This document shows positions 27,599-60,921 of a DNA stretch of 64,000 nucleotides, piece by piece; position 1 is the stretch's first letter; the number at the start of each line of letters is the position of its first letter. A program made the translations under genes and the position numbers. The notes below the pieces were generated by a model. The model ran no database searches. It was not told where the DNA came from and was given only the letters and a program-made list of their open reading frames with translations. The stretch covers positions 1 to 64,000 of the forward strand of contig JAIBEO010000200.1 in NCBI GenBank assembly GCA_019459185.1, in the 5' to 3' direction. The stretch is from Rhizobium sp. (GTDB lineage: Bacteria > Pseudomonadota > Gammaproteobacteria > Xanthomonadales > Xanthomonadaceae).

Positions 27599-27674
27599 GG
27601 CCGAGTAGCTCAGTTGGTAGAGCAGGGGATTGAAAATCCCCGTGTCGGCGGTTCGATTCCGTCCTCGGCCACCA
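27599..27674 (+). tRNA. tRNA-Phe (GAA)
   Basis: 76 nt with encoded CCA. Acceptor GGCCGAG/CTCGGCC pairs, the anticodon loop ttgaaaa gives GAA, and the T-arm is ggcggTTCGATTCcgtc. Its 3' 45 nt also form the left repeat of island 1, so the gene stayed intact on integration. Confidence 0.97.
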
Positions 27675-27675
27675 T
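27630..27675 (+). repeat. Left att repeat of island 1 (inside tRNA-Phe)
   Basis: 46 bp, from the anticodon loop through CCA plus one base, identical to 33257-33302. Confidence 0.95.
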
Positions 27676-27680
27676 ATACG

Positions 27681-27691
27681 TCAAGCACTTA
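27681..27691. promoter_or_regulatory. tcaagcactta motif 6 bp after tRNA CCA
   Basis: The same ten bases, tcaagcactt, stand exactly 6 nt after the CCA end in island 3 (minus strand, 54130-54121), and a looser version (tcaatgattt) in island 2. Position and conservation suggest an attP-arm or integrase/Xis contact site. Confidence 0.35.
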
Positions 27692-28717
27692 CGAAAGCCG
27701 CACTAGTTGCGGCTTTTGTTTGTGTGTCAAAAACGTGCCATCGATGCGGCTGGCCGCGCCCCGTAGGTGATCGGCCGCCAAATGCGCGTACCGAAGCACC
27801 ATCTCGTAGCTCGCCCAACCACCCAACTCCATCAGCTCTTGCAGCGGCGTTCCGTTCTGGACGTGCCAGGACGCCCAGGTGTGCCGCAGGTCGTGCCAAC
27901 GAAAGCCGGGCTCGATGCCCGCTCTTGCCACCGCTTGCTTCCATGCCCTGGTGGAGCATCGGGCGACGGGTTGGCCTTGGTAGGCAAACACGTACTCCGG
28001 ATGCCGCCCCAGACGCCGACGCAGAACGTCGAGCGCGTCCTCGTTCAAGGGAACGCCAATGGCCCTGCCAGCCTTGGCCTCGTCTGGATGGATCCACGCC
28101 ACGCGACGGCTCATGTCCACCTGGTCCCATCGCAGGTAAGACACGTTGCGCTGCCGGAGCCCCGTCGAAAGCGCGACCTGCGCCATGTCCCGGAGGTGGG
28201 GCGGCAACTCCGCGAGAAGTCGCCGCGCCTCATCCGGGGAAAGGAAGCAAATGCGCTTCTTCGGTTCCCGGTAGAGCCGGACCTTGGGAATGTGATCCAC
28301 CCACTCCCAATCGTCCTTTGCCCGTCGCAAGATCGAACGCACCAGGGCGAGGGTTCGATTGGCAGTGGAAGGACTGGATTGCGCCGCCTTCTTCTCGCCA
28401 GTCTTCTCGACCACTTCGCGGGTCACCTGACTGAGCATCAAGTGCCCCAGGAAGGGATGCAGCCAACGCAAGTTGGCCACATCCTTGTCGTGCGAACTCT
28501 TGTGGCTGGTTTCCTTCACCCACCTCACAGCGGCGTCCTGCCAGCTGCGATCGGGCTTCACGCCTAGCCGCTGTTCTTCCCAGTACCGGACCTTGAGCCG
28601 GTCGAGGTATTCCTGGGCGGCGGTTTGGTCTGAAGTCCCAGCAGAGCGGCGTATTCTTTCGCCGTTCGGCGTGGTGAAGGCGACCCACCAGACGTCACCC
28701 CGTTTCGATAGCCCCAT
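27689..28717 (-). CDS. Tyrosine recombinase/integrase of island 1
   Basis: 342 residues. An N-terminal arm-binding-like domain (KRGDVWWVAFTTPNG) and SAM-like core precede a catalytic domain with Arg in TGLRQRNVSYL, the HDLRHTWASW box (H-x-x-R), LGGW, and the nucleophile Tyr in MVLRYAHL. It is homologous to the island 2 integrase (shared EEQRLGVKP/EQQRLGVKP and RWHDLRHTWASWH) but clearly diverged, matching the different tRNA target. It is the last gene of the rep-HTH-int operon, and its start lies inside the HTH ORF. Confidence 0.95.
   Translation of the reverse strand: MGLSKRGDVWWVAFTTPNGERIRRSAGTSDQTAAQEYLDRLKVRYWEEQRLGVKPDRSWQDAAVRWVKETSHKSSHDKDVANLRWLHPFLGHLMLSQVTREVVEKTGEKKAAQSSPSTANRTLALVRSILRRAKDDWEWVDHIPKVRLYREPKKRICFLSPDEARRLLAELPPHLRDMAQVALSTGLRQRNVSYLRWDQVDMSRRVAWIHPDEAKAGRAIGVPLNEDALDVLRRRLGRHPEYVFAYQGQPVARCSTRAWKQAVARAGIEPGFRWHDLRHTWASWHVQNGTPLQELMELGGWASYEMVLRYAHLAADHLRGAASRIDGTFLTHKQKPQLVRLS
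27694..27718. terminator. Element-borne terminator behind tRNA-Phe
   Basis: aaagccgc/gcggcttt with a 7-nt loop, followed by tgtttg on the plus strand. It ends tRNA-Phe transcripts and overlaps the last int codons on the other strand. It belongs to the element; the host terminator is at 33313. Confidence 0.7.
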
Positions 28718-28926
28718 GAAGATTTCTCCTCGTTGGAGCCACTTAACGGCGCTTGCCTACCGGCAGCGTAAAGCTGACCGAGATACGCAGCAAGATCGTC
28801 CTCCAGGAAGACCCAGCGCTTGCCCGGTTTCGCGGCTTTGACGCGGCCCTGGCGGGCGTGCAGGCGCAGGACGGCCGGCGACATGTGCAGCCATGCGGCG
28901 GCTTCGTGCAGGTCGAGCGTACGCAT
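28564..28926 (-). CDS. Small HTH (excisionase-like) protein of island 1
   Basis: The first 60 residues, MRTLDLHEAAAWLHMSPAVL through KRWVFLEDDLAAYL, form a MerR-like/HTH_17 DNA-binding domain typical of excisionases. The open frame continues to 120 residues and overlaps int by 154 bp; that tail is low-complexity and may be translated only incidentally. It begins four bases after the rep stop. The island 2 counterpart has the same length and layout. Confidence 0.8.
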   Translation of the reverse strand: MRTLDLHEAAAWLHMSPAVLRLHARQGRVKAAKPGKRWVFLEDDLAAYLGQLYAAGRQAPLSGSNEEKSSWGYRNGVTSGGSPSPRRTAKEYAALLGLQTKPPPRNTSTGSRSGTGKNSG

Positions 28927-28929
28927 GGC

Positions 28930-30162
28930 TTAGTCCTGGTCATGGGGATCGATCCGCACGTTGTAGCGGCGGGCCTTGGCCCTCGCCTTGCGGTCCAGGT
29001 ACTCGGCCAGCCGTCGCCCTTCAGCCGCCTCGGGGCCGTCGTGGTAGACCGTCAGGGCCTGGAGGAACTCGCCCAGGCCTTGATCGAGCTCCGTGATGCC
29101 CTCGCGGGCCATGAAGGACGTCAGGCCCCAGAGGCCGGCCTTGAAGATGGCGTCATCGCCCGGGGCGCGGGACTTCGTGACCCGCATCAGGGGCGATGCC
29201 TCGGGCGGCACATCGAAGACGCCGGCCAGCGCTTCCCACAGCGGGTGAATCGGCCAGCGGGTGCGGGTGTCGTCTGTGGCCGAGGGAATCGCCAGCCGCA
29301 GCCATTCCGAGGTCAGGTAGCGCCAGAGGAGTCCCAGGAGAGGCACCGCATCCAACGCCGCGCCCTTGAGCTCGTCCGGCAGACCTTCCCGGCGAACCTG
29401 GAACTCCATGCGCCAGACCGTCTGCCCTTCCTGCCAGCCCTGCGCGGCCCACAGCGGCTTGAGGTAGTCCTTGCCTGACTTCAAAAGCTCCCGGGTCTTG
29501 TCGTAGAGCCTCGCGCTGACCTCGTTCCCGGCTCCGAACGTCATGCCGGTCACATAGTCCCGGTCCTCATGGATGTCCCGCTTGCGGCAACGCTTTACCC
29601 AATGGTCACCAGGGAGGGAGGTGACGTCCAAATCCGTCGTGAAGTCCACGAACAGGTCGATGCGGCTCAGCGTCCCGGGGCCAGAAGCCTCGCCAAATTC
29701 GGGGATCAGGGCATCCAGGGAGGCCAAGGCTTCCTCCGCACCTACGGCGGTGAGGTACTCGCTCCGAACTTGGACATGCGCCAACGGCAGAATATTTGCG
29801 CTCGCGTTGGAGAGTTCCAAGCGAAACCAGTTGTCCTCCAGCACAAAAGCGAAGCGGCCCCGGCCTCGGGGCGAGACCGTGAAAAAGTGGTCTCCGTTGT
29901 AGTACCCGGCTTCGGCCTGCTGCCGGTCATCGATGGACTGGGCCAGCTCCTTGAGCTCTTGGAGCATGACCGCCACATGGCGGTCGATTCCCCCGGGATA
30001 GGAGACGTAGACGCTATCCACCCCATGCCGAAGGGGGCGAATGCAGTTAGCGGGTGCTGTGATACTGGGCTTGGCACCCGCCGAAGCCGGCGGCGCGGCA
30101 GCCGGCAAGCCGGCCTGTCCGCCGCCGTCCCCGGCCGTGGGGCTGAACTCGTGGTTTTGCAT
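28930..30162 (-). CDS. Rep_trans-type replication initiation factor of island 1
   Basis: 410 residues. A low-complexity N-terminal 40 residues precede a domain with the Rep_trans pattern LSRIDLFVDFTTD, ARLYDKTRELLKSGKDY and VWRMEFQVRRE, shared by rolling-circle initiators, filamentous-phage replication proteins and MobT/NicK-type relaxases. It probably nicks an origin and binds DNA covalently by Tyr, either for replication of the excised circle or for mobilisation; sequence alone cannot separate these. It is the first gene of the rep-HTH-int operon. Confidence 0.75.
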   Translation of the reverse strand: MQNHEFSPTAGDGGGQAGLPAAAPPASAGAKPSITAPANCIRPLRHGVDSVYVSYPGGIDRHVAVMLQELKELAQSIDDRQQAEAGYYNGDHFFTVSPRGRGRFAFVLEDNWFRLELSNASANILPLAHVQVRSEYLTAVGAEEALASLDALIPEFGEASGPGTLSRIDLFVDFTTDLDVTSLPGDHWVKRCRKRDIHEDRDYVTGMTFGAGNEVSARLYDKTRELLKSGKDYLKPLWAAQGWQEGQTVWRMEFQVRREGLPDELKGAALDAVPLLGLLWRYLTSEWLRLAIPSATDDTRTRWPIHPLWEALAGVFDVPPEASPLMRVTKSRAPGDDAIFKAGLWGLTSFMAREGITELDQGLGEFLQALTVYHDGPEAAEGRRLAEYLDRKARAKARRYNVRIDPHDQD

Positions 30163-30211: not shown

Positions 30212-31024
30212 TCACTTGCCTTTGGCCGAGAACCCAAATCGCGGATTTTGAATCCCCGCCTGCTTTTGCCAACTCCGAAAGAGCTTAAAGAGGCTGGCCT
30301 TGGCGTCTTCGTTCGCGCCAGTCGTGTCGTATATCTTCAAATGCTCCACAACCAACTCATAGATCTCTTCTCTTGAGCAGGTCTCAAACGCGCCCTGGTC
30401 CCGAAGTAGGTATTCCGCCCACCTGAGCTCGGGATACTCGAGGCGTTTCTTATGCGGCCCTTTGATAGCCCTGAAAACTTGTTCCGCGCTTGAAGAATCG
30501 CCCGACAATTGACCTAGCCTAAGTCCAACCTGAAAAAAAGACATAGTGGAAACCATGCTATCCACCGAGAGGGCAGCAAAAAGCGCGTTGATATCGCCCT
30601 GCTTGGCAGTTTGGATCATGTCGTTGATTGACCTGGAGTAGCACGCAATCGCATCCAAGTTGCCGATCATGGCGAACGCAAGAGGCAAGGTCGCTGGGTG
30701 CTCTGGCACTTCGTCAGGCATTGAGTCAACCGCGTCCAAGAGGAAAGCTATCGGGTCGGTCGCTTCGACCGCATCTTTCAGTATTGGCCCAATGCCTGAC
30801 ACGACCGCAATTTTCGCTAACAACTCGATTAGGGTGTCTTGATAGTAGACAGTCCAGTTAGGGACCGCTGCCAATCTTTGAAAGGCTTTGAGCCATTGCG
30901 ATTCGTCCTGCTGCGAAATCTGCCAAGCCGCTCGCTCTGCCCAAATTTCTTGGAACATGGCGAGGCAGCGCGCGATAGCGCGGCCAGTTATTCTCCCGTA
31001 GAGTTTTTCCTCCCACTTAACCAT
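30212..31024 (-). CDS. Helical orphan cargo protein of island 1
   Basis: 270 residues from MVKWEEKLYGRITG; an in-frame ATG 15 codons upstream exists but overlaps the probable promoter. It is predicted nearly all helical with hydrophobic stretches (IELLAKIAVVSGIGPIL, LPLAFAMIGNLDAIACY) and a polar mid-region (QTAKQGDINALFAALSVD). I recognise no family. The GC content and codon use are unlike the flanking chromosome. It is divergent from the DUF2971 gene, a common arrangement for defence or toxin cargo. Confidence 0.65.
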   Translation of the reverse strand: MVKWEEKLYGRITGRAIARCLAMFQEIWAERAAWQISQQDESQWLKAFQRLAAVPNWTVYYQDTLIELLAKIAVVSGIGPILKDAVEATDPIAFLLDAVDSMPDEVPEHPATLPLAFAMIGNLDAIACYSRSINDMIQTAKQGDINALFAALSVDSMVSTMSFFQVGLRLGQLSGDSSSAEQVFRAIKGPHKKRLEYPELRWAEYLLRDQGAFETCSREEIYELVVEHLKIYDTTGANEDAKASLFKLFRSWQKQAGIQNPRFGFSAKGK

Positions 31025-31139
31025 GCGCCTCCCATACCTTGAACCGATGTCCGATGCGGACCCTCTCAAGCGTTACCCAAGCAACAGCACAATTCATAGC
31101 GGACTAGCGAGCAAAAGACACTAACCCAGGAATACGTCG

Positions 31140-32012
31140 ATGCGAAATGTCGGAACATATTTTGAGATGCCGGCTCCGTTCAATCTTTTTCATTACACCG
31201 GGATCGGCTCATTGATTGGGATGGCGCGATCCAAATCGATCTGGGCGAGCAATGCGTACTATCTAAACGATTCCCGGGAGGTTATTCATGCATGCGACAT
31301 TTTGACGAAGACCATAGAGATTCGCATTGCTGCCGACAGCGCAGACCCAAGTGAAATCGATTTTCTCATTCAGCTCAAGAGCTGGGCGCAATCGTTCAAG
31401 AAGACTCACTACGGAATCTTTATATTCTCACTATCCGAGAAGAGCAGTTTGCTCAGTCAGTGGCGAAGCTATACGCCACATGGGAAAGGGGTGAGCGTCG
31501 GCTTTTCGCCTGAATTGCTGAGCAAATTGGCGCAATCCTCGCGATCGGTTCTTGCGAAATGCATCTATGACGCAAGCGAGCAACGAGATGTTATTGAGGG
31601 GCTTATCGACTTGATCCTTAAGACCTTCCGAAACGAACAATCGTCTATAGATCTTTCGAGAAACCACCCCAGCGAGCGCTATTTCAGTTTCCTAGAGGTC
31701 TATCGCGAGGATTTCTTGAGAGTGCTTTGTCTAATCAAGCACTCTGCATTTTCAGAGGAGGCCGAATGGAGGATCATTTCCCCCTACTTTGCCGGGAATG
31801 AAGCGAAACAAATTAGATTTCGGGAAGGAGCATCGATGCTAGTTCCCTACATTGAGATCCCGCTGCCAGAAATCCGACAGCCGTTCGCAGAGATTGTTCT
31901 TGGTCCATCGCAATACCAGAACTTGTCAATGTCGGCTTTGAGCAAATACTCACAAACCGAGAACCTTACCTCACTGGTCCGGAACTGCGGAATACCTTTT
32001 CGAAAGTGGTGA
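31140..32012 (+). CDS. DUF2971 family protein (island 1 cargo)
   Basis: 290 residues with the DUF2971 pattern: NLFHYTGIGSLIGM near residue 16, SIWASNAYYLNDSREV, FSLSEKSSLLSQWRSY, GKGVSVGFS and the C-terminal AEWRIISPYF. Function is unknown, but such genes are frequent in mobile and defence loci. It is AT-richer than the host, and its DNA is separated by a short promoter region from the divergent orphan. Confidence 0.78.
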   Translation: MRNVGTYFEMPAPFNLFHYTGIGSLIGMARSKSIWASNAYYLNDSREVIHACDILTKTIEIRIAADSADPSEIDFLIQLKSWAQSFKKTHYGIFIFSLSEKSSLLSQWRSYTPHGKGVSVGFSPELLSKLAQSSRSVLAKCIYDASEQRDVIEGLIDLILKTFRNEQSSIDLSRNHPSERYFSFLEVYREDFLRVLCLIKHSAFSEEAEWRIISPYFAGNEAKQIRFREGASMLVPYIEIPLPEIRQPFAEIVLGPSQYQNLSMSALSKYSQTENLTSLVRNCGIPFRKW

Positions 32013-32059
32013 CCGTCAGATACGTTCAGAACGTCAACAGCTTATGAGGGGAATCGAAG

Positions 32060-32440
32060 ATGAGAAACGGCCTACTTCTGTTTGCGATCCTACTTCTTCC
32101 GAATTCCGCAGCTCGCTCCCAAGAGGTCGAACGCGAAGTTTGGATATCGAATGGCTTTCTTACGGGCCAGGAGTACTTGGCGCTAGATCAATCGGCAAGG
32201 ACCACCTTCGCTATGGGTGCGGTAGACGGCATGCTCGTTGCTCCGTTGCTCGGCGCCGCCGACATCGAATGGCTCAATGCTTGCGTAGTCGGCATGACCG
32301 GAAGCCAAGTAGAAGCGATGGTTACGAAGGAAGTTAGGGACCACCCAGCCAGTTGGAATTCCGGCGTTTTGACCGCGATCTTCAGAGCCTTCAACACTGG
32401 CTGTCCGGGCTCACCAGCGAATTCGGTGCGCCAGATCTGA
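32060..32440 (+). CDS. Exported Rap1a/Tai-like small protein (island 1 cargo)
   Basis: 126 residues with a signal peptide (LLLFAILLLPNSAARSQ). The mature part has the Rap1a-like arrangement: FLTGQEYLALD, FAMGAVDGM, a central Cys (WLNACVVG), VEAMVTKEVRDHPASW and a terminal AFNTGC that could pair with it. This fold is known from immunity proteins of type VI effectors, but the match is weak and by eye only. It could protect against a cell-wall effector or be unrelated. Confidence 0.55.
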   Translation: MRNGLLLFAILLLPNSAARSQEVEREVWISNGFLTGQEYLALDQSARTTFAMGAVDGMLVAPLLGAADIEWLNACVVGMTGSQVEAMVTKEVRDHPASWNSGVLTAIFRAFNTGCPGSPANSVRQI

Positions 32441-32490
32441 CGCGGATAGTTCGGCAAGCGAGTCCCTGCCCGTGCTCACCGAGCGATGAC

Positions 32491-33138
32491 ATGACTGATA
32501 ACTACGTGATTGCTACCGCCGCTGCTGGAATCTATAGAGCAGTTCACGCAGCGCGTACTGACATCGGCATAGCAATAGATATGATCGGCCTGGTTGTCGG
32601 CGATGACGCAGAGGAACCTGCAGATTTTGTAGAAGAAGCCGCATGGACGACTGCTGCCATCAGATACGCCAGGGCGTGGAAGGTTCCGTTGCTGCCTGAA
32701 AAGGCGCGAGTACGCTTCTTAGGCTGCCTTACAGAGGCACAGCTTGCGGCACACCAGCATGTCATGACAATTCGAGATGCCATGTACGCCCATCAAGTTG
32801 GGGTCGGGATAGATATGACTGTCACAGCCGTTGTAGGTCCGGACAGTTCTGGAAAATCGTGCCTTTGGGGAATGGGGATTCAAAGTAGTCGAATTAGCTC
32901 GCCGGGCACGAATGCGGCAAAGCAATTCTTGGAAATCCTGCAAGTCGCTCATGAGCAACTGGAACAGTTAGAGCGCGAGTCCCACAGGCTGGCATTGGAG
33001 GATCTGCAGTCTCGCCCCGCAGAAGAATGGATTTTGCGAGGCATTTATCAAAAGAATCTCCAGTTTGACATCCGGGGAGCAACGTACAGGCGCGAGTTCG
33101 ACAAACGAACGCCGCGAGCCAAGCCTCCTCGCTCCTGA
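32491..33138 (+). CDS. Orphan cargo protein with HEPN-like R-D-x4-H motif (island 1)
   Basis: 215 residues from MTDNYVIATAAAGI; the longer ORF start overlaps the previous gene by 88 bp and was rejected. It is mostly helical. TIRDAMYAH (Arg95, His101) fits the R[N/D]x4-5H signature of HEPN RNases, placed after a helix as in that fold. A beta-like segment follows (DMTVTAVVGPD) and a long Glu-rich helix near the C-terminus. Assignment as HEPN is only a hypothesis. It is the last gene before the right att repeat. Confidence 0.55.
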   Translation: MTDNYVIATAAAGIYRAVHAARTDIGIAIDMIGLVVGDDAEEPADFVEEAAWTTAAIRYARAWKVPLLPEKARVRFLGCLTEAQLAAHQHVMTIRDAMYAHQVGVGIDMTVTAVVGPDSSGKSCLWGMGIQSSRISSPGTNAAKQFLEILQVAHEQLEQLERESHRLALEDLQSRPAEEWILRGIYQKNLQFDIRGATYRREFDKRTPRAKPPRS

Positions 33139-33256: not shown

Positions 33257-33302
33257 TTGAAAATCCCCGTGTCGGCGGTTCGATTCCGTCCTCGGCCACC
33301 AT
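33257..33302 (+). repeat. Right att repeat of island 1 (tRNA-Phe remnant)
   Basis: 46 bp identical to the tRNA-Phe 3' half at 27630-27675. It has no 5' half, so it is not a tRNA gene. Confidence 0.95.
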
Positions 33303-48997: not shown

Positions 48998-49047
48998 GGA
49001 TGGTGGGCGGTACAGGTTTCGAACCTGTGACCCCTACCATGTCAAGG
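48998..49047 (-). repeat. Left att repeat of island 3 (tRNA-Val remnant)
   Basis: 50 bp identical to 54134-54183, the 3' part of tRNA-Val plus three flanking bases. It lacks the tRNA 5' half. Confidence 0.95.
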
Positions 49048-49131
49048 CTGGGAATCGGGGTTCGCAGCCGTCCGCATCGACTGTAAATAGCTGATTTATA
49101 TGTCGTGCCAGTCCGTATCGGTTCCCCCACG

Positions 49132-49152
49132 TTTTCCGTACTATTTCCGTAC
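49132..49152. repeat. Left arm-type repeats of island 3
   Basis: ttttccgtac and atttccgtac are 11 bp apart, one helical turn. The same pair stands inside the right end at 54069-54089. Likely integrase arm sites. Confidence 0.55.
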
Positions 49153-49184
49153 CGGCGAATTCATCGCCTCTGCGGGGCAATAGC

Positions 49185-50330
49185 ATGGACTTGGGAACCG
49201 TTCGAGACCGGGAAAAACTGAAGCCGCGCCGCGAGCCGTACTGGCACAAGCTCGCATCTCGGCAATTCCTGGGCTTCCGCCCTTCGACCATCGGAAAGGG
49301 TGGCTCCTGGATCGCCCGCTACTACGATTCCGAGACGGGCAAGAAGCCGATCCGCTCACTTGGGGACTTTGGGCACCTGCCTCCTAACGAGCGCTTTTCA
49401 GCTGCTTCCAAAGAAGCCCGCGAATGGTTCGCCCACCTATCGGGGGGCGGCGCCGCCGAACCAATCACGGTCAAGGAGGCTTGCGAGCGCTACGCCCAGG
49501 ATCGACCGGACGCCACTCGCCGGTTCGCGCGCTACGTTTACGGCGACCCCATCTCCAAGGTCATGCTTCACAAGCTGACCGATAAGCAGGTTCGGGAGTG
49601 GCGCAAACGCCTGGAGGCCATGCCGGCCCTTGTGAGCCGCCGCAAGGCCGGAAAGGCCAATACGCGGCCTAGGTCGGCCGCCACAGTCAATCGCGACATG
49701 GTGTGTCTCCGGGCGGCCCTGAACTTTGCTTTGGACCAAGGAGAAGTCCTAACTGCCGTCGCGTGGCGCAAAGCTTTGCAGCCTAGTGAGGCGAAAGGGC
49801 GTCGGAACCTCTATTTGGACCGTGACCAACTGCGAGCACTCTTGGATCAACTGCCGCAAGACGCCAAGACATTCGCGCACGCCCTTTGCCTGCTGCCACT
49901 CCGACCGGGAGCACTTGCCCAACTCCGCGTAAAGGACTACGACCCGAAGACCTCGACAATCACGATAGAGCGAGACAAGGCGGGAAACGGGCGAAAGATC
50001 CTTTTGCCCACAGACACGGCGGCAATGCTGAAGGGCCAATGTCGGGACAAGCTACCGGGAGCGCCGATCTTTGCGAGAGCAGACGGCCAGCCTTGGGACA
50101 AGGACGCATGGAAAGGCCCAATAAAAGCGGCCGTAGTCGCAGCAGAACTGCCGCGAGAAGCAACCGCATACACCATCCGCCACTCAACGATTACCGACCT
50201 CGTATCGGGCGGCCTGGACCTGTTGACCGTGGCCCAAGTCTCCGGAACTTCCGTGGCGATGATTGAACGTCACTATGGGCACTTGCAGCGTGATAAGGCT
50301 GCTGCGGCACTTGCAGGGCTCGCGCTATGA
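49185..50330 (+). CDS. Tyrosine recombinase/integrase of island 3
   Basis: 381 residues. Catalytic-domain residues: Arg in LPLRPGALAQL, the second Arg in YTIRHSTITDL (with Tyr in place of the usual first His), and the nucleophile Tyr in IERHYGHL. The N-terminal SGGGAAEPITVKEACERYAQ region binds core DNA. It belongs to another branch than the island 1 and 2 enzymes. Transcribed inward from the remnant end, and coupled to the next gene by ATGA. Confidence 0.92.
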   Translation: MDLGTVRDREKLKPRREPYWHKLASRQFLGFRPSTIGKGGSWIARYYDSETGKKPIRSLGDFGHLPPNERFSAASKEAREWFAHLSGGGAAEPITVKEACERYAQDRPDATRRFARYVYGDPISKVMLHKLTDKQVREWRKRLEAMPALVSRRKAGKANTRPRSAATVNRDMVCLRAALNFALDQGEVLTAVAWRKALQPSEAKGRRNLYLDRDQLRALLDQLPQDAKTFAHALCLLPLRPGALAQLRVKDYDPKTSTITIERDKAGNGRKILLPTDTAAMLKGQCRDKLPGAPIFARADGQPWDKDAWKGPIKAAVVAAELPREATAYTIRHSTITDLVSGGLDLLTVAQVSGTSVAMIERHYGHLQRDKAAAALAGLAL

Positions 50331-50881
50331 ATACTCTGCTTGACGCCAAATATGGCCCAAACGAATCAAGCGCTATAGACCTCGCATTGGACGATGATTC
50401 CCTAGGCCGCCAGCTGGCCCGGACCTGGATTGAATTCCAGGCAGAGCGAAAAGGCATAACAAAGGAAAGGATCGACCAAGGCCTTATCGACAAGATTCTG
50501 ACCGCATCCACGGGCATTGATTCATCCCGACCCGAAGCGGCGGCACTTGAGAGCGCCATCAGAAAGGCAGCTAGAGGCGAGTTTCGTCGTGCCGGACTAA
50601 TGCTCCGTGTGTACGCCACTGACGGTGCGAATATCATCGTTCGGAATGATTTTGGCTATGTCGCCATCCCCATAATCGAAGGTCGGCAGAAAGGAGGGAA
50701 ACGCGGCGGCGAGGCCACAAAAGAAAGAGCACAGCCAACCCGCGATAAGATCATCAAGGCGGCAAATCGCCTTATCGCCAAGGGAACCGCCCCGCGAAAC
50801 GTGGCCGGAATTCTTGCAGCCCAGTTCGACCGCACGCCCACGTGCATAAGGAAAATCCTGCGTGACGCAGGGATAAAGTAG
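50327..50881 (+). CDS. Orphan protein coupled to the island 3 integrase
   Basis: 184 residues. The N-terminal half is helical and acidic; the C-terminal part (TRDKIIKAANRLIAKGTAPRNVAGILAAQF, then TPTCIRKILRDAG) resembles an HTH. It could be a recombination directionality or regulatory protein. No family name recognised. Confidence 0.6.
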   Translation: MNTLLDAKYGPNESSAIDLALDDDSLGRQLARTWIEFQAERKGITKERIDQGLIDKILTASTGIDSSRPEAAALESAIRKAARGEFRRAGLMLRVYATDGANIIVRNDFGYVAIPIIEGRQKGGKRGGEATKERAQPTRDKIIKAANRLIAKGTAPRNVAGILAAQFDRTPTCIRKILRDAGIK

Positions 50882-50978
50882 CCCACCAAAAAAAGCGAAA
50901 AAGGGCTAAGGCCTGTTTCGTTGCTACCTCCATAGTTCGCGCCGGTCCCAAGCAATTCCCAGGAACGGAGACGCACAC

Positions 50979-51179
50979 ATGGACGTTAAGCAGCCGCCGA
51001 CATTTCGGCCCCTTGTAGAAGCCTGCCAAGAACACGGAATCAGCCGGACTGTTGCATTCGAACTAGCAAGAAGGGGCATTCTCGACACATTCTCTATCGG
51101 CGCGCGCCGATACGTTCGAATGGATTCGCTGAACTCTCTGCCCGACCGATTGGCCAACTCACCTGGGGTGCGGTCGTGA
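50979..51179 (+). CDS. Small HTH (excisionase-like) protein of island 3
   Basis: 66 residues. LVEACQEHGISRTVAFELARRGILDTFSIGARRYVRMDSL matches the MerR-like excisionase fold. It starts after a 97-bp gap that probably holds a promoter, with GGAG upstream. GTGA overlap with the next gene. Confidence 0.7.
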   Translation: MDVKQPPTFRPLVEACQEHGISRTVAFELARRGILDTFSIGARRYVRMDSLNSLPDRLANSPGVRS

Positions 51180-51448
51180 GTCCGCAGCTTCGGGGAAACC
51201 GCTGCCAATGTACCGGCTGCGGCGAACTGTTCAATTCTCTTGGCATGTTTGACCGGCACCGGGTCGGCCCGTACGCCAAGCCGGGCGAATATCGCGGGCA
51301 ACGGCGATGCCTGACCCCTGCGGAGATGACGGCGCGCGGCCATTTGCGGAACACGGCCGGATTCTGGATTCGAATGCCAAGGAAAGCTGGCACTACGCGG
51401 CAAAGAGGCCATTCCGACACCCTGGCCGCTACGGGGGTAGCGCCATGA
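51176..51448 (+). CDS. FDXHR family putative zinc-binding protein
   Basis: 90 residues from GTG. CTGCGELFNS and the signature MFDRHRVGPY (F-D-x-H-R), with downstream Cys (RRCLTPAEM), form the putative zinc site of FDXHR proteins found in phages and mobile elements. ATGA overlap with the primase gene. Confidence 0.75.
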   Translation: MSPQLRGNRCQCTGCGELFNSLGMFDRHRVGPYAKPGEYRGQRRCLTPAEMTARGHLRNTAGFWIRMPRKAGTTRQRGHSDTLAATGVAP

Positions 51449-52641
51449 CCACGACAGACTTCCTCTCGCTATTCGGCGACGGTCAGTTCACGTTCCAAAC
51501 GTTCGATGACTCGTCGGCCAAATCCCCAAAATTGTCTCGCGTTCTACATGGCACCCTGCACAAGCACACGCAGACGCTTAACGCATTGAATGATAGAGGC
51601 GCAGGCGTCTTCTTCATGGTGAACAAGGGCGACGGCAAGGGAAGGAGAGCTAAGAACGTCCAGAAAGTGACCGCGCTATTTCTGGACCTAGACGGCTCCC
51701 CATTAAAGCCCGTGCAAGCAGCTGGTCTTTCGCCACACTGCACGGTGGAATCATCGCCGGGGCGCTGGCACGCTTATTGGCTGGTGGCAGATTGCCCGCT
51801 GGACCGGTTTACGTCATTGCAGCAAGCGCTCGCCGACCGGTTTCAGGGCGACAAAAAGGTGTGCGACCTGCCGCGAGTAATGCGCCTGCCAGGCTTTTAT
51901 CATCGAAAGGCCGCCCGATTCATGTCCCGAATCCTAACCCTGGACGCCAACCGCGCACCGTATAAGGTGGCCGAGCTAGTGCGGGAACTTGAACTAAAGC
52001 CTGCGCCCGCACCGCCACCCCTTGCCAAGCAGCGCAAGCTTCCAGGCTTCATCCCCGAAGGGGAGCGCAACACCACCCTACTGAGCTTGGGCGCAGGCTT
52101 GGTGCGAAAGGGGCACGATTTGCAAGGCGTGAATGTCCGCCTGCAAGTGATTAATTCCGAACGCTGCCGGCCACCGCTAGGCGCTACGGAAGTCGAGCGA
52201 ATCGCCGCCCGGGCCCATAGCTACGGATCTAATGGCTTTGTCCAATTGCCGCACCAGCTACTTGATTCCCTTGAGTGGAAGGCCCTACCGCCACCGGCTC
52301 ACGATATAGTTTTAATGGCATTCCGGCGCTTCGACGGCAGCAACAATGGAAACATTGCACTAACGTGGTCCGACTTCGCCGACAGGCCGGGGTTCAGCGA
52401 CAAGAAAACGTTTTACCGGCACCGTCGCCGCGCGCTGGCGTCCAAAATTCTTATTGCACGGCAAGCTGGCAACGGGAGGAACGGCCGAACGCCCGATTTA
52501 ATCGCCATTGCTGATCACTGGCTACCTGGCCCAGTGTGCAAAAGCCAACCTGGCCCCAGTACGCAAATCTCTGACCTCTACATAGATAAACAGTCTGTTG
52601 GCACCTGTGATTCAAAGATTGCACCGGAAGCCGCGCGATGA
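51445..52641 (+). CDS. RepB-like primase with PriCT domain (island 3 replication protein)
   Basis: 398 residues. Archaeo-eukaryotic primase-like N-terminus: ALFLDLDGSPLKP (acidic metal site) and SSPGRWHAYWLV. A PriCT-like helical region follows (EGERNTTLLSLGAGLVRKG, then EVERIAARAHSYG), and a C-terminal winged-helix-like part. It probably primes or initiates replication of the excised element. Start chosen at MTTTDFLSLF by the ATGA overlap. Confidence 0.8.
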   Translation: MTTTDFLSLFGDGQFTFQTFDDSSAKSPKLSRVLHGTLHKHTQTLNALNDRGAGVFFMVNKGDGKGRRAKNVQKVTALFLDLDGSPLKPVQAAGLSPHCTVESSPGRWHAYWLVADCPLDRFTSLQQALADRFQGDKKVCDLPRVMRLPGFYHRKAARFMSRILTLDANRAPYKVAELVRELELKPAPAPPPLAKQRKLPGFIPEGERNTTLLSLGAGLVRKGHDLQGVNVRLQVINSERCRPPLGATEVERIAARAHSYGSNGFVQLPHQLLDSLEWKALPPPAHDIVLMAFRRFDGSNNGNIALTWSDFADRPGFSDKKTFYRHRRRALASKILIARQAGNGRNGRTPDLIAIADHWLPGPVCKSQPGPSTQISDLYIDKQSVGTCDSKIAPEAAR

Positions 52642-52847
52642 AACCGAAACTTTCCAGTGAAGTGCTAAAGGCCCTGAAAGATGCCAAACGCGGTCCCGGC
52701 TGGAATAACCGCTGCCCCACCGTCCGCCGGTTCGAGATTGGGTGTTATGGGCTTGCTTGCACTCTATACGTTGTCCCAGCGCGAGCCTGGGCGTACAGGT
52801 CGGCTGAGCGTGGGGCGCAAGCATGGCAAGCGAGCGCATGGTCATGA
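52638..52847 (+). CDS. Small ORF of island 3
   Basis: 69 residues, beginning at an ATG that overlaps the primase stop. Basic N-terminus, mid-region with Cys (CYGLACTLYV). No family recognised; the tight coupling supports a real gene. Confidence 0.45.
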   Translation: MKPKLSSEVLKALKDAKRGPGWNNRCPTVRRFEIGCYGLACTLYVVPARAWAYRSAERGAQAWQASAWS

Positions 52848-53407
52848 AAGGCGCTGAAGGCCACTTTAGCCGGGACAAGACGCATATTGCCCGGCTCCAA
52901 CGCGAGCGACGGGCACGTCTGACGCGAATTGACTACATGCCGAACGCCGTTGCGCGGATCGCCATTGCCGCAAAGCGACAGACTGTGAGGCCTGGCAGCG
53001 TCGCGGCGACCCATAGCGCCATCCTGGACGCGATCATTTCCGAGTGGGCCGAGCTGACCGGAATTAGCTATCCGAAGCTGGAGCCGCCCAAGAGTTCGAA
53101 GGATGTGGACCAGTACGCGCGTCCGCGTATGACTTCGGTCCAAATAGCGACCCCGAGCACTCAACCTTTGGGAGATCCCTCCGGAATTTCCCGACACATC
53201 GCGCACAGGCGTGCGCGCGGGATGGAGTCCGGGTCAATGCGTGTTAGCTGCGGGGCCAAGCGCCATCGGGACGGCCTACCTTGCAAAGCCAAGTCGGAGC
53301 CGGGAAAACGTCGCTGCCGCTTCCATGGGGGGCGATCAACAGGACCGAAAACCGCACTCGGCAGGGCCAAGTCTTTGAGAAATCTCGTGCAATTCAGAGC
53401 TGACTAG
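52823..53407 (+). CDS. HGGxSTG domain protein of island 3
   Basis: 194 residues. The C-terminal CGAKRHRDGLPCKAK and RFHGGRSTGPKT define the HGGxSTG motif, probably a small zinc-binding nucleic-acid domain seen in phage and mobile-element genes. The N-terminal region is basic (HIARLQRERRARLTRIDY). Overlaps the small ORF by 25 bp. Confidence 0.7.
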   Translation: MASERMVMKGAEGHFSRDKTHIARLQRERRARLTRIDYMPNAVARIAIAAKRQTVRPGSVAATHSAILDAIISEWAELTGISYPKLEPPKSSKDVDQYARPRMTSVQIATPSTQPLGDPSGISRHIAHRRARGMESGSMRVSCGAKRHRDGLPCKAKSEPGKRRCRFHGGRSTGPKTALGRAKSLRNLVQFRAD

Positions 53408-53988
53408 GGCGACCGGACTTCCACAGGTTTCTCGTCGGAAGCGGTTTCAGCACATAGGGTCGTTATCACAGTCTCCCCTACACTCCCTGGAAGGGCTCGC
53501 TCCCAAGAGACCGGCGCTTGGGAAGTCGAACTGCCAACGACTTCGCCACTACCCATCGAGCCGGCATACAGCGCGAACTCCCCAATGGCATACGTCCTCT
53601 TTTCGCAATTGGCCATCCAGTACGAAACCTGGGAGCGAACAACCTTGCCACTGACAAGTCCGACTGGTTCGAACCGGTCGAACAAAATCCAGTCTTCTGC
53701 GATAGCTCCATTTCTGACCGCTTTGGTCGCATGACGCCTATAGAAGACGCCTTCTTCGACACGGAAAATAATCGACCAATGCACGCCCGAACTGGACTCG
53801 ATGTAAGAGAACAACTTCGTGCAGGAGCGCGCTGACTCGGGGCACCCGACATTCGAATAGTTGATAGTGCCGTCTTGCGACTCGTACTTGAACACTGTGT
53901 TTGGGACCGGAGTTGCATAGGCAGGTATTGACGCGAAGATCGCCCCCAAAAATAGGCCTGCAAATACTCCGCCGCGTCGCTTGCACAT
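53404..53988 (-). CDS. Exported adhesin-E/DUF4124-like protein (island 3 cargo)
   Basis: 194 residues from MCKRRGGVFAGLFLGAIFAS, a signal peptide ending near AYA. NTVFKYESQDGTINYSNVGC resembles DUF4124; the rest (DWILFDRFEPVG, VSYWMANCEKRTYAIGEFALYAGS) resembles surface-adhesin E-like proteins with two conserved Cys. It is the only gene transcribed toward the backbone, so it looks like independent cargo. Confidence 0.65.
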   Translation of the reverse strand: MCKRRGGVFAGLFLGAIFASIPAYATPVPNTVFKYESQDGTINYSNVGCPESARSCTKLFSYIESSSGVHWSIIFRVEEGVFYRRHATKAVRNGAIAEDWILFDRFEPVGLVSGKVVRSQVSYWMANCEKRTYAIGEFALYAGSMGSGEVVGSSTSQAPVSWERALPGSVGETVITTLCAETASDEKPVEVRSP

Positions 53989-54044
53989 ATGGACCCTCCG
54001 CCGAAGGCCGATTCCCAAGCCTAGGCCCTAGTCTAGCCCACAAA

Positions 54045-54072
54045 AAAACCGCCCTGTTTCCAGAGCGGTTTT
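54045..54072 (-). terminator. Element-borne terminator behind tRNA-Val
   Basis: On the minus strand, aaaaccgc/gcggtttt with a 12-nt loop is followed by a T-run (TTTTTTTG). It is inside island 3 and now ends tRNA-Val transcripts; the host terminator is at 48932-48961. Confidence 0.75.
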
Positions 54073-54089
54073 CCGTATTCTTTCCGTAC
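54069..54089. repeat. Right arm-type repeats of island 3
   Basis: ttttccgtat and ctttccgtac, 11 bp apart, match the pair at 49132-49152 in sequence, spacing and orientation. Confidence 0.55.
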
Positions 54090-54120
54090 TGCTGGCTTCC
54101 TTTGCCACCCAAATCGCGCT

Positions 54121-54130
54121 AAGTGCTTGA
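54121..54130 (-). promoter_or_regulatory. tcaagcactt motif of island 3
   Basis: On the minus strand it lies exactly 6 nt after tRNA-Val CCA, the same place and sequence as at 27681 in island 1. Confidence 0.35.
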
Positions 54131-54133
54131 TTT

Positions 54134-54183
54134 GGATGGTGGGCGGTACAGGTTTCGAACCTGTGACCCCTACCATGTCAAGG
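54134..54183 (-). repeat. Right att repeat of island 3 (inside tRNA-Val)
   Basis: 50 bp shared exactly with 48998-49047. It covers the tRNA 3' half and anticodon. Confidence 0.95.
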
Positions 54184-54211
54184 TAGTGCTCTACCGCTGA
54201 GCTAACCGCCC
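54137..54211 (-). tRNA. tRNA-Val (GAC)
   Basis: 75 nt on the minus strand with encoded CCA. Acceptor GGGCGGT/ACCGCCC, anticodon loop ttgacat giving GAC, T-loop ttcgaaa. Its 3' half is the right att site of island 3. Confidence 0.97.
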
Positions 54212-57013: not shown

Positions 57014-57090
57014 GCCCGAATAGCTCAGCCGGTTAGAGCACTTGACTGTTAATCAGGGGGTCGTTGGTTCGAGTCCAACTTCGGGCGCCA
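57014..57090 (+). tRNA. tRNA-Asn (GTT)
   Basis: 77 nt with encoded CCA, acceptor GCCCGAA/TTCGGGC, anticodon loop ctgttaa giving GTT. Its 3' half is the left repeat of island 2; the last integrase codons also lie in it on the other strand. Confidence 0.97.
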
Positions 57091-57093
57091 GAT
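57046..57093 (+). repeat. Left att repeat of island 2 (inside tRNA-Asn)
   Basis: 48 bp from the anticodon loop through CCA plus gat, identical to 60874-60921. Confidence 0.95.
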
Positions 57094-58150
57094 TATTCAA
57101 TGATTTAGGGTCGCTTCGGCGGCCCTTCTTCATTTCCGGCGTAGCTAAATCGTAGCTCTCCTCTATCCGTACTTGTTCTGCGTACCGCTTCAGGTCATCC
57201 ATGCCGAGGTGTGCGTAACGTTGGACCATGGCCGGGGTCTGCCACCCGCCGAGCTTCTGGAGCACGTGCATCGGCGTTCCGCTCTGGGCGTGCCAGCTGG
57301 CCCACGTATGCCGGAGATCGTGCCAGCGGAAGTTCTCGATCCCTGCCCGCTTTAGCGCCCTCCTCCAAGCCTTCGTGCTGGTCTTGAACTCGAAAGGCCG
57401 ACCCCGGAACGTAAAGACCCACTCGGGATGCTTCCCGCGCTGTTCTTCGAGGACCCGCATCGCCTCGGCGCTCAGGGGAACGGGAATGGCCCGCTTGCCC
57501 TTTGCCTCCGATGCTTCGACCCACGCAGAGCAACGTTCCAGATCGACCTTCGCCCAACGCAGCCCCTTGACGTTGCCTTGGCGCAATCCCGTTGCCAACG
57601 AGAAGCGCGCCATGGCCCGCAAGTGCTCTGGCAGTTCAGCCAACAACCGCCCGGCTTCCTCGCGCGTCAGATACCGGACGCGACCTTGCGGCTCCTTCAA
57701 CAGACGGAACCGAGGCAACTTGTCGAGCCAGTCCCACTCCAACGCGGCCCGCCTCAAGATTGCACGCAAGACCTGAAGACGCCGATTCGTGGTGGCGTCA
57801 CTGACGCCGCTACGCTGGCTCTCTTGCTTGTACCTGTCCACCACATCACGGGTGATTTCGGTCAGGCACATGCCTTCGAGCCGAGGCTGCCACCAACGAA
57901 GGTGCAGCTTGTCATCGCCAACAGACTTCTTCTTCACCTCCTCGCCTAAGTACCGCAGTACAGCTTCATCCCACGAGCGACGCGGCTTTACGCCGAGTCG
58001 TTGCTGCTCCCACAGTTCAGCCCGTCGTTTGTCGTGGTATTCCTGAGCTTGCCGCTTGTTGGCAGTCCCAGTGCTTTCCGACACGCGATGACCGCTGACC
58101 GTGAGTTTGACCCACCAATACGGTGAGTCCTTGCGCTTGTAGAGTGACAT
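57053..58150 (-). CDS. Tyrosine recombinase/integrase of island 2
   Basis: 365 residues from MSLYKRKDSPYWWVKL; the ORF's upstream ATG was rejected because island 1 int starts at the same homologous point. Catalytic Arg in TGLRQGNVKGL, HDLRHTWASW, LGGW and Tyr in MVQRYAHL are intact. The C-terminus APEVGLEPTTP is read from the antisense strand of tRNA-Asn and ends within the att core, so the protein is the same in integrated and circular forms. Homologous to island 1 int. Confidence 0.93.
   Translation of the reverse strand: MSLYKRKDSPYWWVKLTVSGHRVSESTGTANKRQAQEYHDKRRAELWEQQRLGVKPRRSWDEAVLRYLGEEVKKKSVGDDKLHLRWWQPRLEGMCLTEITRDVVDRYKQESQRSGVSDATTNRRLQVLRAILRRAALEWDWLDKLPRFRLLKEPQGRVRYLTREEAGRLLAELPEHLRAMARFSLATGLRQGNVKGLRWAKVDLERCSAWVEASEAKGKRAIPVPLSAEAMRVLEEQRGKHPEWVFTFRGRPFEFKTSTKAWRRALKRAGIENFRWHDLRHTWASWHAQSGTPMHVLQKLGGWQTPAMVQRYAHLGMDDLKRYAEQVRIEESYDLATPEMKKGRRSDPKSLNNLAPEVGLEPTTP
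57108..57130. terminator. Element-borne terminator behind tRNA-Asn
   Basis: gggtcgc/gcggccc around ttcg, followed by ttctt. It ends tRNA-Asn transcripts from inside the element; the host terminator is at 60928. The U-tract is modest. Confidence 0.6.
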
Positions 58151-58350
58151 TCTGAAATCTCCGAGCTGCCACCCTGCAAGGCTCGCCACTTGTAGTGTGC
58201 CCGAACGTAGGCGATCAGGTCATCTTCGACAAAGACCCAGCGCCGCCCGATCTTGGCGGCCGGGATGCGTCCGTCGGATGCCCGCTCCGCCACCGTGACC
58301 GGGTGCAGCTTCAGGACTTGGGCGGCCTCTTGCAGGGTGAGGGTTCTCAC
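57988..58350 (-). CDS. Small HTH (excisionase-like) protein of island 2
   Basis: 120 residues from GTG (VRTLTLQEAAQVLKLHPVTV), with RWVFVEDDLIAYV as in island 1. The HTH occupies the first 60 residues; the tail overlaps int by 163 bp. GTGA overlap with the rep stop shows coupling. Confidence 0.8.
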   Translation of the reverse strand: MRTLTLQEAAQVLKLHPVTVAERASDGRIPAAKIGRRWVFVEDDLIAYVRAHYKWRALQGGSSEISECHSTSARTHRIGGSNSRSAVIACRKALGLPTSGKLRNTTTNDGLNCGSSNDSA

Positions 58351-59348
58351 TGGTCGCTACCTTCCCGCCGCGGCATTCCGGGCAGCGGAAGGTGGACAAG
58401 CCGTTTCGGCACCCCAGGGCGCATCGCCTGATAGAGAACGGCAAAGGGATCGCCGCCCTCAGCTCTTAGCATCACGTTGAGCGCAGGACCGTACTGGGTG
58501 CGGAGGCAATCAACCATGCGGGCGTATTCGATCTCAGCGGACTTCTTGAGCGTCCGCACCTTGTCTTGGCGCTCAGAGAGGTAGGCAAGGCAGGGATAAG
58601 CGCCCGCGAGGTAGCTGCTCGCCTTCACCAACACATCCGGCGGGATAACACGCGACTTCGCCCGAAACTCGACTTCGACGCGGCACCAAGGGCTGCTGGG
58701 GTCGCCCAGTTGCTTGCCCTTCTCGTAGATGCGGCAGAGTTTCCCGTTCTGGCGTTGCCCGACATAGAGAGTCTTCCCCCTGCCGGAGCCGAGATCGTCC
58801 AGAAGTCGGGCCAGAGGCGCCCGCCCACTCGTGATGAACTGGCCCTCAGCGAACCACTTCCGGGCCTGCTGGACGCTGACGGTGCGCCCACTGAAGTCGT
58901 CGTGAGCGAGGTCGATGCGGGTGATCTTGACGCCGCAGTCCTCGCACCAGACTCGCACGGCGTTCCAGTCCCGAATCCGAGCACAGCCGTGGGCGTTCAG
59001 CTCTAAGTGCACTGTTCCCCGCTGGTGCTCGCCCCCGTAGGCGAGCAACCCAAGTCCCCCAAGGTCAATGCGGACCTCGTACCCCTGCCAGCCACCGGGC
59101 CGGGTGACCCACTGGTCTTGAGGGATCAGGAAAACGGACTCAATGATCGCGGCAAAGCCCCCTGCCCCCGGCAGAAAGGTGCAAGCGAACCAATCGACGT
59201 GCGCGATTCCCGGGTGACTTTCGCCCCGTGTTACTGGACGGGGCTCGCACTCAGCCGGCGCTGCGCCGCCGCCTGAGCTGCCGCGCGGCACCCGCGCGTC
59301 TGCACAGGCAGCGGCTGCCTGTGCGTTGGAGGGTGATTCTGTTTGCAT
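58347..59348 (-). CDS. Rep_trans-type replication initiation factor of island 2
   Basis: 333 residues from MQTESPSNAQ; 23 upstream residues cross an inverted repeat and were rejected. HVDWFACTFLPG, ITRIDLAHDDFSG, GKTLYVGQRQNGKLCRIYEKG and WCRVEVEFRAK are the Rep_trans hallmarks; a PCLAYLSER segment follows. It should initiate rolling-circle-type replication or mobilisation of the circle. First gene of the operon. Confidence 0.82.
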   Translation of the reverse strand: MQTESPSNAQAAAACADARVPRGSSGGGAAPAECEPRPVTRGESHPGIAHVDWFACTFLPGAGGFAAIIESVFLIPQDQWVTRPGGWQGYEVRIDLGGLGLLAYGGEHQRGTVHLELNAHGCARIRDWNAVRVWCEDCGVKITRIDLAHDDFSGRTVSVQQARKWFAEGQFITSGRAPLARLLDDLGSGRGKTLYVGQRQNGKLCRIYEKGKQLGDPSSPWCRVEVEFRAKSRVIPPDVLVKASSYLAGAYPCLAYLSERQDKVRTLKKSAEIEYARMVDCLRTQYGPALNVMLRAEGGDPFAVLYQAMRPGVPKRLVHLPLPGMPRREGSDQ

Positions 59349-59797
59349 ATGCGTGACTCCGGTCGGCACGGAGGAGTCACGGCTACGCGATTGGGCGCCC
59401 AGATGACTCCGCCGCATGTCTGCGGGAAATCACAAGGAGGGGGCAGGCCCGATTAGGAATGTTCTTTGCCTCTGACGCGGACCCTGCCTATTTCTGGTCC
59501 GTGCCTGTCTGGGCTGCGGTAGCTCCACATCGACCTAGGCCGGTGGTCCCGCTATTCAACGGCCTTTGTGGGCCGTCCCGACGCCATCTGCCAACGCGCC
59601 GGAGACTCAATGCGATATAGCTGCTTGTGTGCAGATAAGCTGCCACAGAGGAAATGGAGCCGTCAAGCAGGCGTTACCCACCGACTCCACAGCCTTGCTT
59701 CGCTCCGCTAAGCAACCCGCACGCCGGTTCGGTTCGACGTTAACGCCGAACCGCCGCACGGGCTTCGGGCTGCGGCGTCCGTGGATAACGCCCGAGC
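59349..59797. other. 449-bp spacer of island 2 with several dyads
   Basis: No convincing gene. It holds cgtgactcc/ggagtcacg (59352-59381) just before the rep start, acggcc/ggccgt (59559-59576), and a 22-bp near-perfect palindrome (59731-59752). Candidate rep promoter, operator and double-strand origin. The 59566..59841 ORF has no family features. Confidence 0.5.
59731..59752. repeat. 22-bp palindrome with cgttaacg core
   Basis: ggttcgacgttaacgccgaa and its end form a dyad with only one mismatched pair. It lies between the cargo stop and rep, a likely repressor operator or origin site. Confidence 0.5.
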
Positions 59798-60610
59798 TCA
59801 GCTGCCCGGCGAGGCGATGTCAGTTTTCTTGGGTTGTTTGATCGCACCTTGGAAGTGCCAAACGCGAAAATACGATGAGTGTTCTGGTGCCTCCACCTGA
59901 GAGGCTGCATAGCCAGATCCACCCTCTATGTGCTGGAGCAAATTGTTCGCCGCGCTGTCCGAGGCGCGAAGCAGCATGTTTACCAAACTATCTTTGGCAG
60001 CGTCACTTGCATAAAGCAAATCCGCCCATTCCGGGAAAAAACAGTCATCTAGTACTGGCAACTCACGCGACGCGATTTTGGAAAGGTTTCCTAGGTGCGA
60101 GTCAACGATGAATGCGATCAGGCCTGCACTAGAGCGATTAGGGTCACCCTCCATCTGAACAATGTGCTGCTTGAGCGCCAGAAGGTCGGGGTGACAATCC
60201 ACGTTGCGGAACTCAAGCGCATGGACAGGTGCAAAGCCAAGAATCGGCGAGGGAGAACGCTGCGTCCATTTGCCAAGGACAACAGCAGCGATTGATATCT
60301 CCTGGCCGCCTATTGACCTGGTGTTTGTGTCAATGGAGAAAATTGTGTCATAGGCCAAGAGCGCAGTATTCGGATCAGACGAGATTCGAGCTGAACCATC
60401 TACAGGGATGCGGCTGAGAACTTTGGGGCCCTTAGCTCTTTCATAGCTGCGCTCTAGAGTTGCTTTAACAGGTTGTAGCGAGTTGCCCTTCCCATCGAAG
60501 AATTCAATCGAGCCATCTCCTGAAACGGAGACGGTCTTAACCTCGACAGGTATGCCCATGTCCATGGTGACTATGGAGGTGCGGGGCTTCGATGGCTTTT
60601 GTCGCTTCAT
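59798..60610 (-). CDS. Orphan cargo protein of island 2
   Basis: 270 residues. The middle has two acidic segments after hydrophobic strands, LLAYDTIFSIDTNTRSIGG and GLIAFIVDSHLGNLSKIA, a layout that recalls RNase H-fold or kin but is not diagnostic. N-terminal beta-rich region (SIVTMDMGIPVEVKTVSVS). Lower GC than the host. It has its own upstream region with gtaggcgttag repeats. No family recognised. Confidence 0.6.
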   Translation of the reverse strand: MKRQKPSKPRTSIVTMDMGIPVEVKTVSVSGDGSIEFFDGKGNSLQPVKATLERSYERAKGPKVLSRIPVDGSARISSDPNTALLAYDTIFSIDTNTRSIGGQEISIAAVVLGKWTQRSPSPILGFAPVHALEFRNVDCHPDLLALKQHIVQMEGDPNRSSAGLIAFIVDSHLGNLSKIASRELPVLDDCFFPEWADLLYASDAAKDSLVNMLLRASDSAANNLLQHIEGGSGYAASQVEAPEHSSYFRVWHFQGAIKQPKKTDIASPGS

Positions 60611-60873
60611 GGGGGCTAACGCCTACCAGTAAGGATGGCAGATAACGGCGGGATCAGGACGCATTGAATATGGTGGTGGCAGCGCTTCTCAGGAGATCAA
60701 CTCCTCATGGGAATTGCCTAACGCCTACGCAAGCGCATGCCCCGCTTGGGGCTAGATACCCATCACTCACGTAGCCAGATTGTAGCCGGGACTGGCGGAT
60801 ACTGACTGAATTTGGCTGCCCCAGACGGTGGGCGAGCCTTACAGGATGCGGGTTGTAGGGTTGTCTGGGACAG
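60611..60873. other. Upstream region of island 2 cargo with gtaggcgttag repeats
   Basis: No gene. On the minus strand, gtaggcgttag occurs at 60626-60616 (8 nt before the cargo ATG) and 60728-60718, 102 bp apart. The distal copy continues as gttaggc, the integron attC core consensus. A hairpin (ccccgctt/aagcgggg-like) lies nearby. Confidence 0.4.
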
Positions 60874-60921
60874 CTGTTAATCAGGGGGTCGTTGGTTCGA
60901 GTCCAACTTCGGGCGCCAGAT
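60874..60921 (+). repeat. Right att repeat of island 2 (tRNA-Asn remnant)
   Basis: 48 bp identical to the tRNA-Asn 3' half at 57046-57093. Not a tRNA gene. Confidence 0.95.

Follow-up and report, generated by a model that had tools for sequence, protein, structure and literature searches.

The locus at 30212-33138 of the window (the whole 64-kb stretch of DNA that was analyzed) is likely part of an element from a broad family whose small, tRNA-integrated members share a backbone of P1, Rep, Xis, and Int (table 1). An earlier note had grouped four genes at this locus, encoding a helical orphan, a DUF2971 protein, an exported protein, and a HEPN-like protein, into one candidate undescribed defense module. 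The helical gene, here called P1, is instead part of the backbone; the four-gene reading is largely refuted by its association with Rep in 59 of 81 related loci, and the other three genes never recur together. The proposal that the island has the profile of defense cargo holds in part, as sister elements carry defense systems in the same slot, but the four-gene module does not.

The element is 5.63 kb in size and has a perfect 46-bp direct repeat at both ends, the first copy of which is the 3' part of a tRNA-Phe gene. A same-genus relative (L152) has the exact empty site, with flanks that are 94-96% identical to those in the window and overlap by just those 46 bp. All four open reading frames are present as described, their GC content is low (0.49-0.56 vs about 0.70 in the surroundings), and the small integrase-Rep backbone reported to adjoin them is recovered as integrase, HTH, and Rep-like genes. 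The three cargo genes are co-directional and P1 is divergent from them. Two start codons are probably better placed than in the initial calls: P1 at the ATG at 31024, behind GGGAGG, rather than the TTG at 31069, and the HEPN-like gene at the ATG at 32491, which yields the Arg95/His101 numbering used before. Two further islands are in the window. One is shorter, of a kindred type, and spans 57014-60918; the other spans 49001-54211 at a tRNA-Val gene, whose sequence recurs at 49001.

Table 1. Features of the element, of other islands in the window, and of the family that replaces P1 (coordinates refer to the window unless preceded by the name of a related locus)
Feature	Coordinates	Strand	Evidence or remark
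tRNA-Phe (GAA), integration target	27599..27674	+	ARAGORN
att repeat 1, 46 bp, 3' part of tRNA-Phe	27630..27675	+	perfect direct repeat; empty site in L152
Tyrosine integrase (Int)	27689..28717	-	Pfam Phage_integrase 1.1e-32; 53-76% identical to integrases of six other family members
Excisionase-like HTH protein (HTH_17; Xis), overlaps int	28564..28926	-	Pfam 3.1e-08; PHROG excisionase 2.3e-09
Replication initiator (Rep), probably rolling-circle type	28930..30162	-	tblastn to plasmid initiators
P1 ("helical orphan"), backbone gene, 270 aa, directly upstream of Rep	30212..31024	-	homologue in position in 59/81 Rep loci
DUF2971 protein (P0002), cargo, 290 aa	31140..32012	+	Pfam 3.3e-12; PADLOC PDC-S31 2.4e-06; PHROG 1762 4.3e-21
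Small, probably exported protein (P0003), cargo, hydrophobic N-terminus	32060..32440	+	Pfam Rap1a E 0.044, below cut-off
HEPN-like candidate RNase (P0004), cargo, 215 aa, R95-D-x4-H101	32491..33138	+	six-member family with invariant residues
att repeat 2, 46 bp	33257..33302	+	perfect direct repeat; empty site in L152
Third island: integrase-like ORF of another kind	49185-50330		
Second island: tRNA-Asn	57014-57090		3' part repeated at 60874
Second island: integrase	57053-58189		49% identical to first island's
Second island: different Rep-like gene	58347-59417		
Second island: single cargo ORF, 271 aa	59798-60610		
P1-replacing family (~250 aa)	L060:7894-8703		directly upstream of Rep
P1-replacing family (~250 aa)	L069:7876-8715		directly upstream of Rep
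P1-replacing family (~250 aa)	L078:8048-8842		directly upstream of Rep
P1-replacing family (~250 aa)	L079:8071-8751		directly upstream of Rep
P1-replacing family (~250 aa)	L104:7931-8695		directly upstream of Rep
P1-replacing family (~250 aa)	L107:6285-7136		directly upstream of Rep

Rep matches no Pfam family, and Rep_trans (PF02486) gave no match at E<=1 in five Reps of the family. By tblastn, Rep is similar to the sole annotated gene on a Synechococcus plasmid of 1,790 bp, to the larger gene on a Mesotoga plasmid of 1,724 bp, and to proteins that initiate replication of Bacillus plasmids. Because of these matches to genes of minimal plasmids and to Bacillus plasmid initiators, Rep is very probably a replication initiator, and the tblastn results suggest that it is probably of the rolling-circle type. 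A search with the Rep alignment against 84,980 species genomes yielded 138 relatives, 80 of which were kept and, together with one viral contig, make up the 81 loci. Most of the hosts named in this search belong to the Beta- and Gammaproteobacteria, among them Lysobacteraceae, Nitrosomonas, Methylophaga, and Herbaspirillum. Repeats of a tRNA 3' half delimit 52 elements that range from 4.4 to 11.4 kb in size (median of 6.4 kb), target tRNA-Phe, -Asn, -Lys, -Arg, -Met, -Thr, -Leu, and -His, and in 45 cases have a GC content below that of their flanks. An ORF occupies the Xis slot in 72 of the 81 loci (HTH identity was checked for part of them), and the excisionase-like HTH gene overlaps the start of the integrase gene in the window, as it does in those relatives that were read. 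No description of such elements was found in the open papers that were searched; the family is widespread and apparently unnamed.

The genes for P1, Rep, Xis, and Int are read in one direction and probably form one operon. Both the 46-bp repeat and the empty site suggest that Int and Xis excise the element at that repeat; Rep would then copy or maintain the excised circle, most likely by rolling-circle replication. Actinomycete integrative elements (AICEs) combine an integrase, an excisionase, and a replication initiator, use tRNA sites, and undergo rolling-circle replication in their excised form. The window element resembles AICEs in its integrase, excisionase-like protein, probable initiator, and tRNA site, but it has no TraB-type transfer gene and is from another phylum. 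In Firmicutes, integrative and mobilizable elements that encode Rep_Trans/MobT initiators are small, have a tyrosine integrase, and in several cases reside in tRNA 3' ends; their initiator is of the rolling-circle type and may serve maintenance of the excised form (PMC5704250, PMC7563843). In some, genes for Type II restriction or for toxin-antitoxin systems are present as well (PMC5704250). The window element is similar in its tyrosine integrase and att repeats at a tRNA 3' end, whereas its family differs in proteobacterial hosts, a Rep without a Pfam match, and the extra P1 gene. Rep_Trans/MobT elements are further characterized by a Rep_trans (PF02486) initiator/relaxase, an oriT, and mobilization by a helper.

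The helical protein had been described as an orphan and as cargo, and it is neither. Searches with an iterated P1-family profile identified a homologue immediately upstream of Rep and in the same orientation, with the integrase downstream, in 59 of the 81 loci (58 without the window, which the count includes). The gap between P1 and Rep, measured in 57 loci, is 28-133 bp in 56 and 330 bp in one (median of 82 bp). A first, independent search found P1 relatives in five other genomes of the order, all five with a Rep-like gene and an integrase adjoining, and some of these loci recur among the 80 Rep loci (e.g., L043, L080, L092, and L102). The remaining 22 of the 81 loci lack a recognizable P1: 11 have another family in its position, and the others either break off at a contig end or could not be assigned. 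Members of the replacing family are unrelated to P1, about 250 aa long, and have a W-D-I-S-x-R-W-like start. Some of them have a GRP-rich C-terminus, and two that were tested have no Pfam match.

P1 proteins are divergent, with D170 as the sole invariant residue in 54 sequences. The AlphaFold (AF2) model of P1 is all-helical and confident (pLDDT of 88.8 and pTM of 0.84); it matches no structure in PDB or BFVD (viral), and the P1 sequence has no significant match among PDB sequences. Because of the fixed position beside Rep and the replacement by another family in some elements, we infer that P1 is a Rep accessory, and its presence beside Rep whatever the cargo suggests that it takes part in replication, in the control of copy number, or in regulation. 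Alternatively, the backbone could carry P1 as a gene for defense or superinfection exclusion, as P1 adjoins the cargo boundary, has a novel fold that gives no functional clue, and can be replaced by an unrelated family. Yet its co-direction with Rep at a short, conserved distance and its occurrence beside many unrelated types of cargo make this quite improbable.

The far end of the element would be an exchangeable cargo slot, in which sister elements have retrons, Kiwa, restriction-modification, and other defense genes. The 135 cargo proteins of delimited elements, a few of which are members of the alternative upstream family, were scanned against PADLOC and Pfam. About 11 of the 52 elements carry recognized defense systems in the slot (a raw count; to call the slot enriched is a judgment, not a statistic) and about 40 do not. 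Directly identified are a retron type VI reverse transcriptase in L040 (Lysobacteraceae, same tRNA-Phe site), a II-A nucleoside deoxyribosyltransferase adjoining a reverse transcriptase (retron II-A) in L066, retron III-A in L079, NsnA/PD-T4-2-like systems in L064 and L100, and Type IIG/ISP restriction in L110. By homology to these systems, L055 has a retron III-A and L056 a Type ISP system, and the tally together with reading of the sequences adds Type III-like Mod and Res genes in L045 and L058 (DPPY motifs; Pfam N6_N4_Mtase and ResIII twice each). Kiwa is present among the cargo proteins (PADLOC; KwaA, 1.9e-71; KwaB, 1.8e-115), and gene size and the PADLOC tally point to L097 (195 and 310 aa) as its carrier; L085, a candidate from gene lengths, was rejected on reading its sequences. 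The related element L019 has BglII and MT-A70. Toxin-antitoxin pairs are also found (HicAB in L039 and YafQ/RelB in the A6 set), and several sister elements carry ordinary-looking genes, namely RHS proteins and a cation ATPase. A cargo protein of L085 (L085:6282-7331), which adjoins a membrane protein, contains RSQYVH, a string that by eye matches a further HEPN motif, the Apea-like one.

In the window, the identity of the DUF2971 gene is confirmed by a Pfam match above the curated cut-off (48 bits vs 22). P0002 also matches four PADLOC PDC-S31 models weakly, the best of them over 51 residues, and the longest match covers 140 of 259 profile positions, short of full length. It shares DUF2971 kinship with this PADLOC candidate, but the match is weak and partial. 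No published mechanism for DUF2971 was found in the papers searched. P0003 had been called a Rap1a-like exported protein; its hydrophobic N-terminus suggests that it is probably exported, but the Rap1a match is below threshold (14.7 bits vs a cut-off of 27.7). A search of 199 further genomes from the order found no homologue of it. P0003 was considered as an immunity protein for P0004 and rejected, since it looks exported and falls below the Rap1a cut-off.

HEPN RNases have a motif of R, then N, D, or H, four further residues, and H, within Rx4-6H and with a polar residue after R; the superfamily also has an upstream conserved acidic residue, typically in Ex3[KR], a four-helix fold, and metal-independent RNase activity (PMC3710099). 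The string TIRDAMYAH reported for P0004 is present and fits this pattern (R95-D96-x4-H101). By itself the string is weak, as R[NDH]x4H occurs in 4.7% of shuffles of P0004; it is notable because it is invariant in distant homologues. Across a six-member family, in which the others are 20-25% identical to P0004, residues D24, A55, Y59, L80, H88, R95, A100, and H101 are invariant, and the residue after the R95-equivalent is D, N, or H. D24 is outside an Ex3[KR] context. P0004 is like the AbiU2/HepT-like RNases of the HEPN superfamily in its R-[N/D/H]-x4-H motif and may be like them in an upstream invariant acidic residue and a helical prediction, but it differs in having no HEPN profile match in Pfam, PADLOC, or PDB and a low-confidence model (pLDDT of 57.7, from a two-sequence alignment). 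HepT chains are among the structure matches of the model at non-significant E of 1.7 and above only. Comparison of the family by hhalign with AbiU2 and HepT was not significant, and the positive control, AbiU2 versus HepT, fails too. A HEPN-type active site is plausible from the conserved residues, and the R-D-x4-H motif deserves attention. The family is sparse and divergent; its members come from islands and from a prophage. Neither the cargo and helical proteins nor P0004 relatives gave matches in viral, phage, and plasmid searches, with the exception of one prophage locus (L038), whose P0004 relative is identical to one already found. Following the P0004-like gene in two genomes is a 124-aa gene (L015:9086-9460 and L016:10389-10763) that by eye resembles MbcA/ParS/Xre antitoxins.

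Other related Rep loci among the 81 have no relatives of P0003 or P0004 and only one other DUF2971 gene (L060, 906-1736), and none of seven DUF2971 relatives elsewhere has a P0003- or P0004-like gene beside it. Because no recurrent co-occurrence was found in the 81 related loci, the 199 other genomes, and the seven DUF2971 neighborhoods, the module fails the test of recurrence that accompanied its proposal. Adjacency, low GC, and the HEPN-like motif speak for a module of four genes, as does the fact that DUF2971 relatives form the PADLOC candidate PDC-S31. However, P1 travels with Rep and not with the other three, is transcribed divergently from them, and the three are without joint recurrence, leaving only a very slight chance that all four are one module.

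The DUF2971, exported, and HEPN-like genes are plausible candidate defense genes because the slot holds known anti-phage systems in related elements. Their likeliest function, to which we give just short of an even chance, would be to protect the host and the element from phages or from rival elements. The candidate HEPN-like protein would then be the effector that cuts RNA, and the DUF2971 gene would serve in defense either separately or as a partner. Another reading is that the three genes are a toxin-antitoxin-like maintenance cassette, in which the HEPN-like RNase is checked by a neighbor and stabilizes the element rather than fights phages. Such a cassette would be consistent with the toxin-antitoxin pairs in sister elements and with the finding that single HEPN RNases are often toxins (PMC3710099), but it is unlikely, given that there is no antitoxin-like partner, that P0003 looks exported and would hardly neutralize a cytosolic RNase, and that P0004 relatives occur without DUF2971 and DUF2971 relatives without P0004. 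It is also doubtful that the cargo is unselected passenger DNA, three genes acquired independently and without a role in defense or maintenance. In favor of this reading, the element family has just one other DUF2971 and no further relative of any of the three, and P0003 is without a detectable homologue in the order sample; yet catalytic-type residues are conserved in remote P0004 relatives, and the slot often holds known defense genes in sister elements.

Tentatively, and with somewhat less than even confidence, we suggest that these are an undescribed proteobacterial family of minimal tRNA-integrated replicons (P1 or the alternative family, with Rep, Xis, and Int) specialized in moving single defense systems between bacteria, that P1, a protein with a new fold, partners the replication initiator, and that the present cargo includes a new HEPN-like defense gene. 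P1, with a confidently predicted all-helical fold that has no solved relative and a position that ties it to a replication initiator, should no longer be taken for a defense candidate. The element family as such is the larger finding. Much of the traffic in defense genes is credited to prophages, satellites, and islands, and how these move is unexplained. A compact vehicle of four genes, sharply bounded at tRNA sites and with a single exchangeable slot, would be a simple, searchable handle, and the slot, read across genomes, would list both known and new defense candidates.
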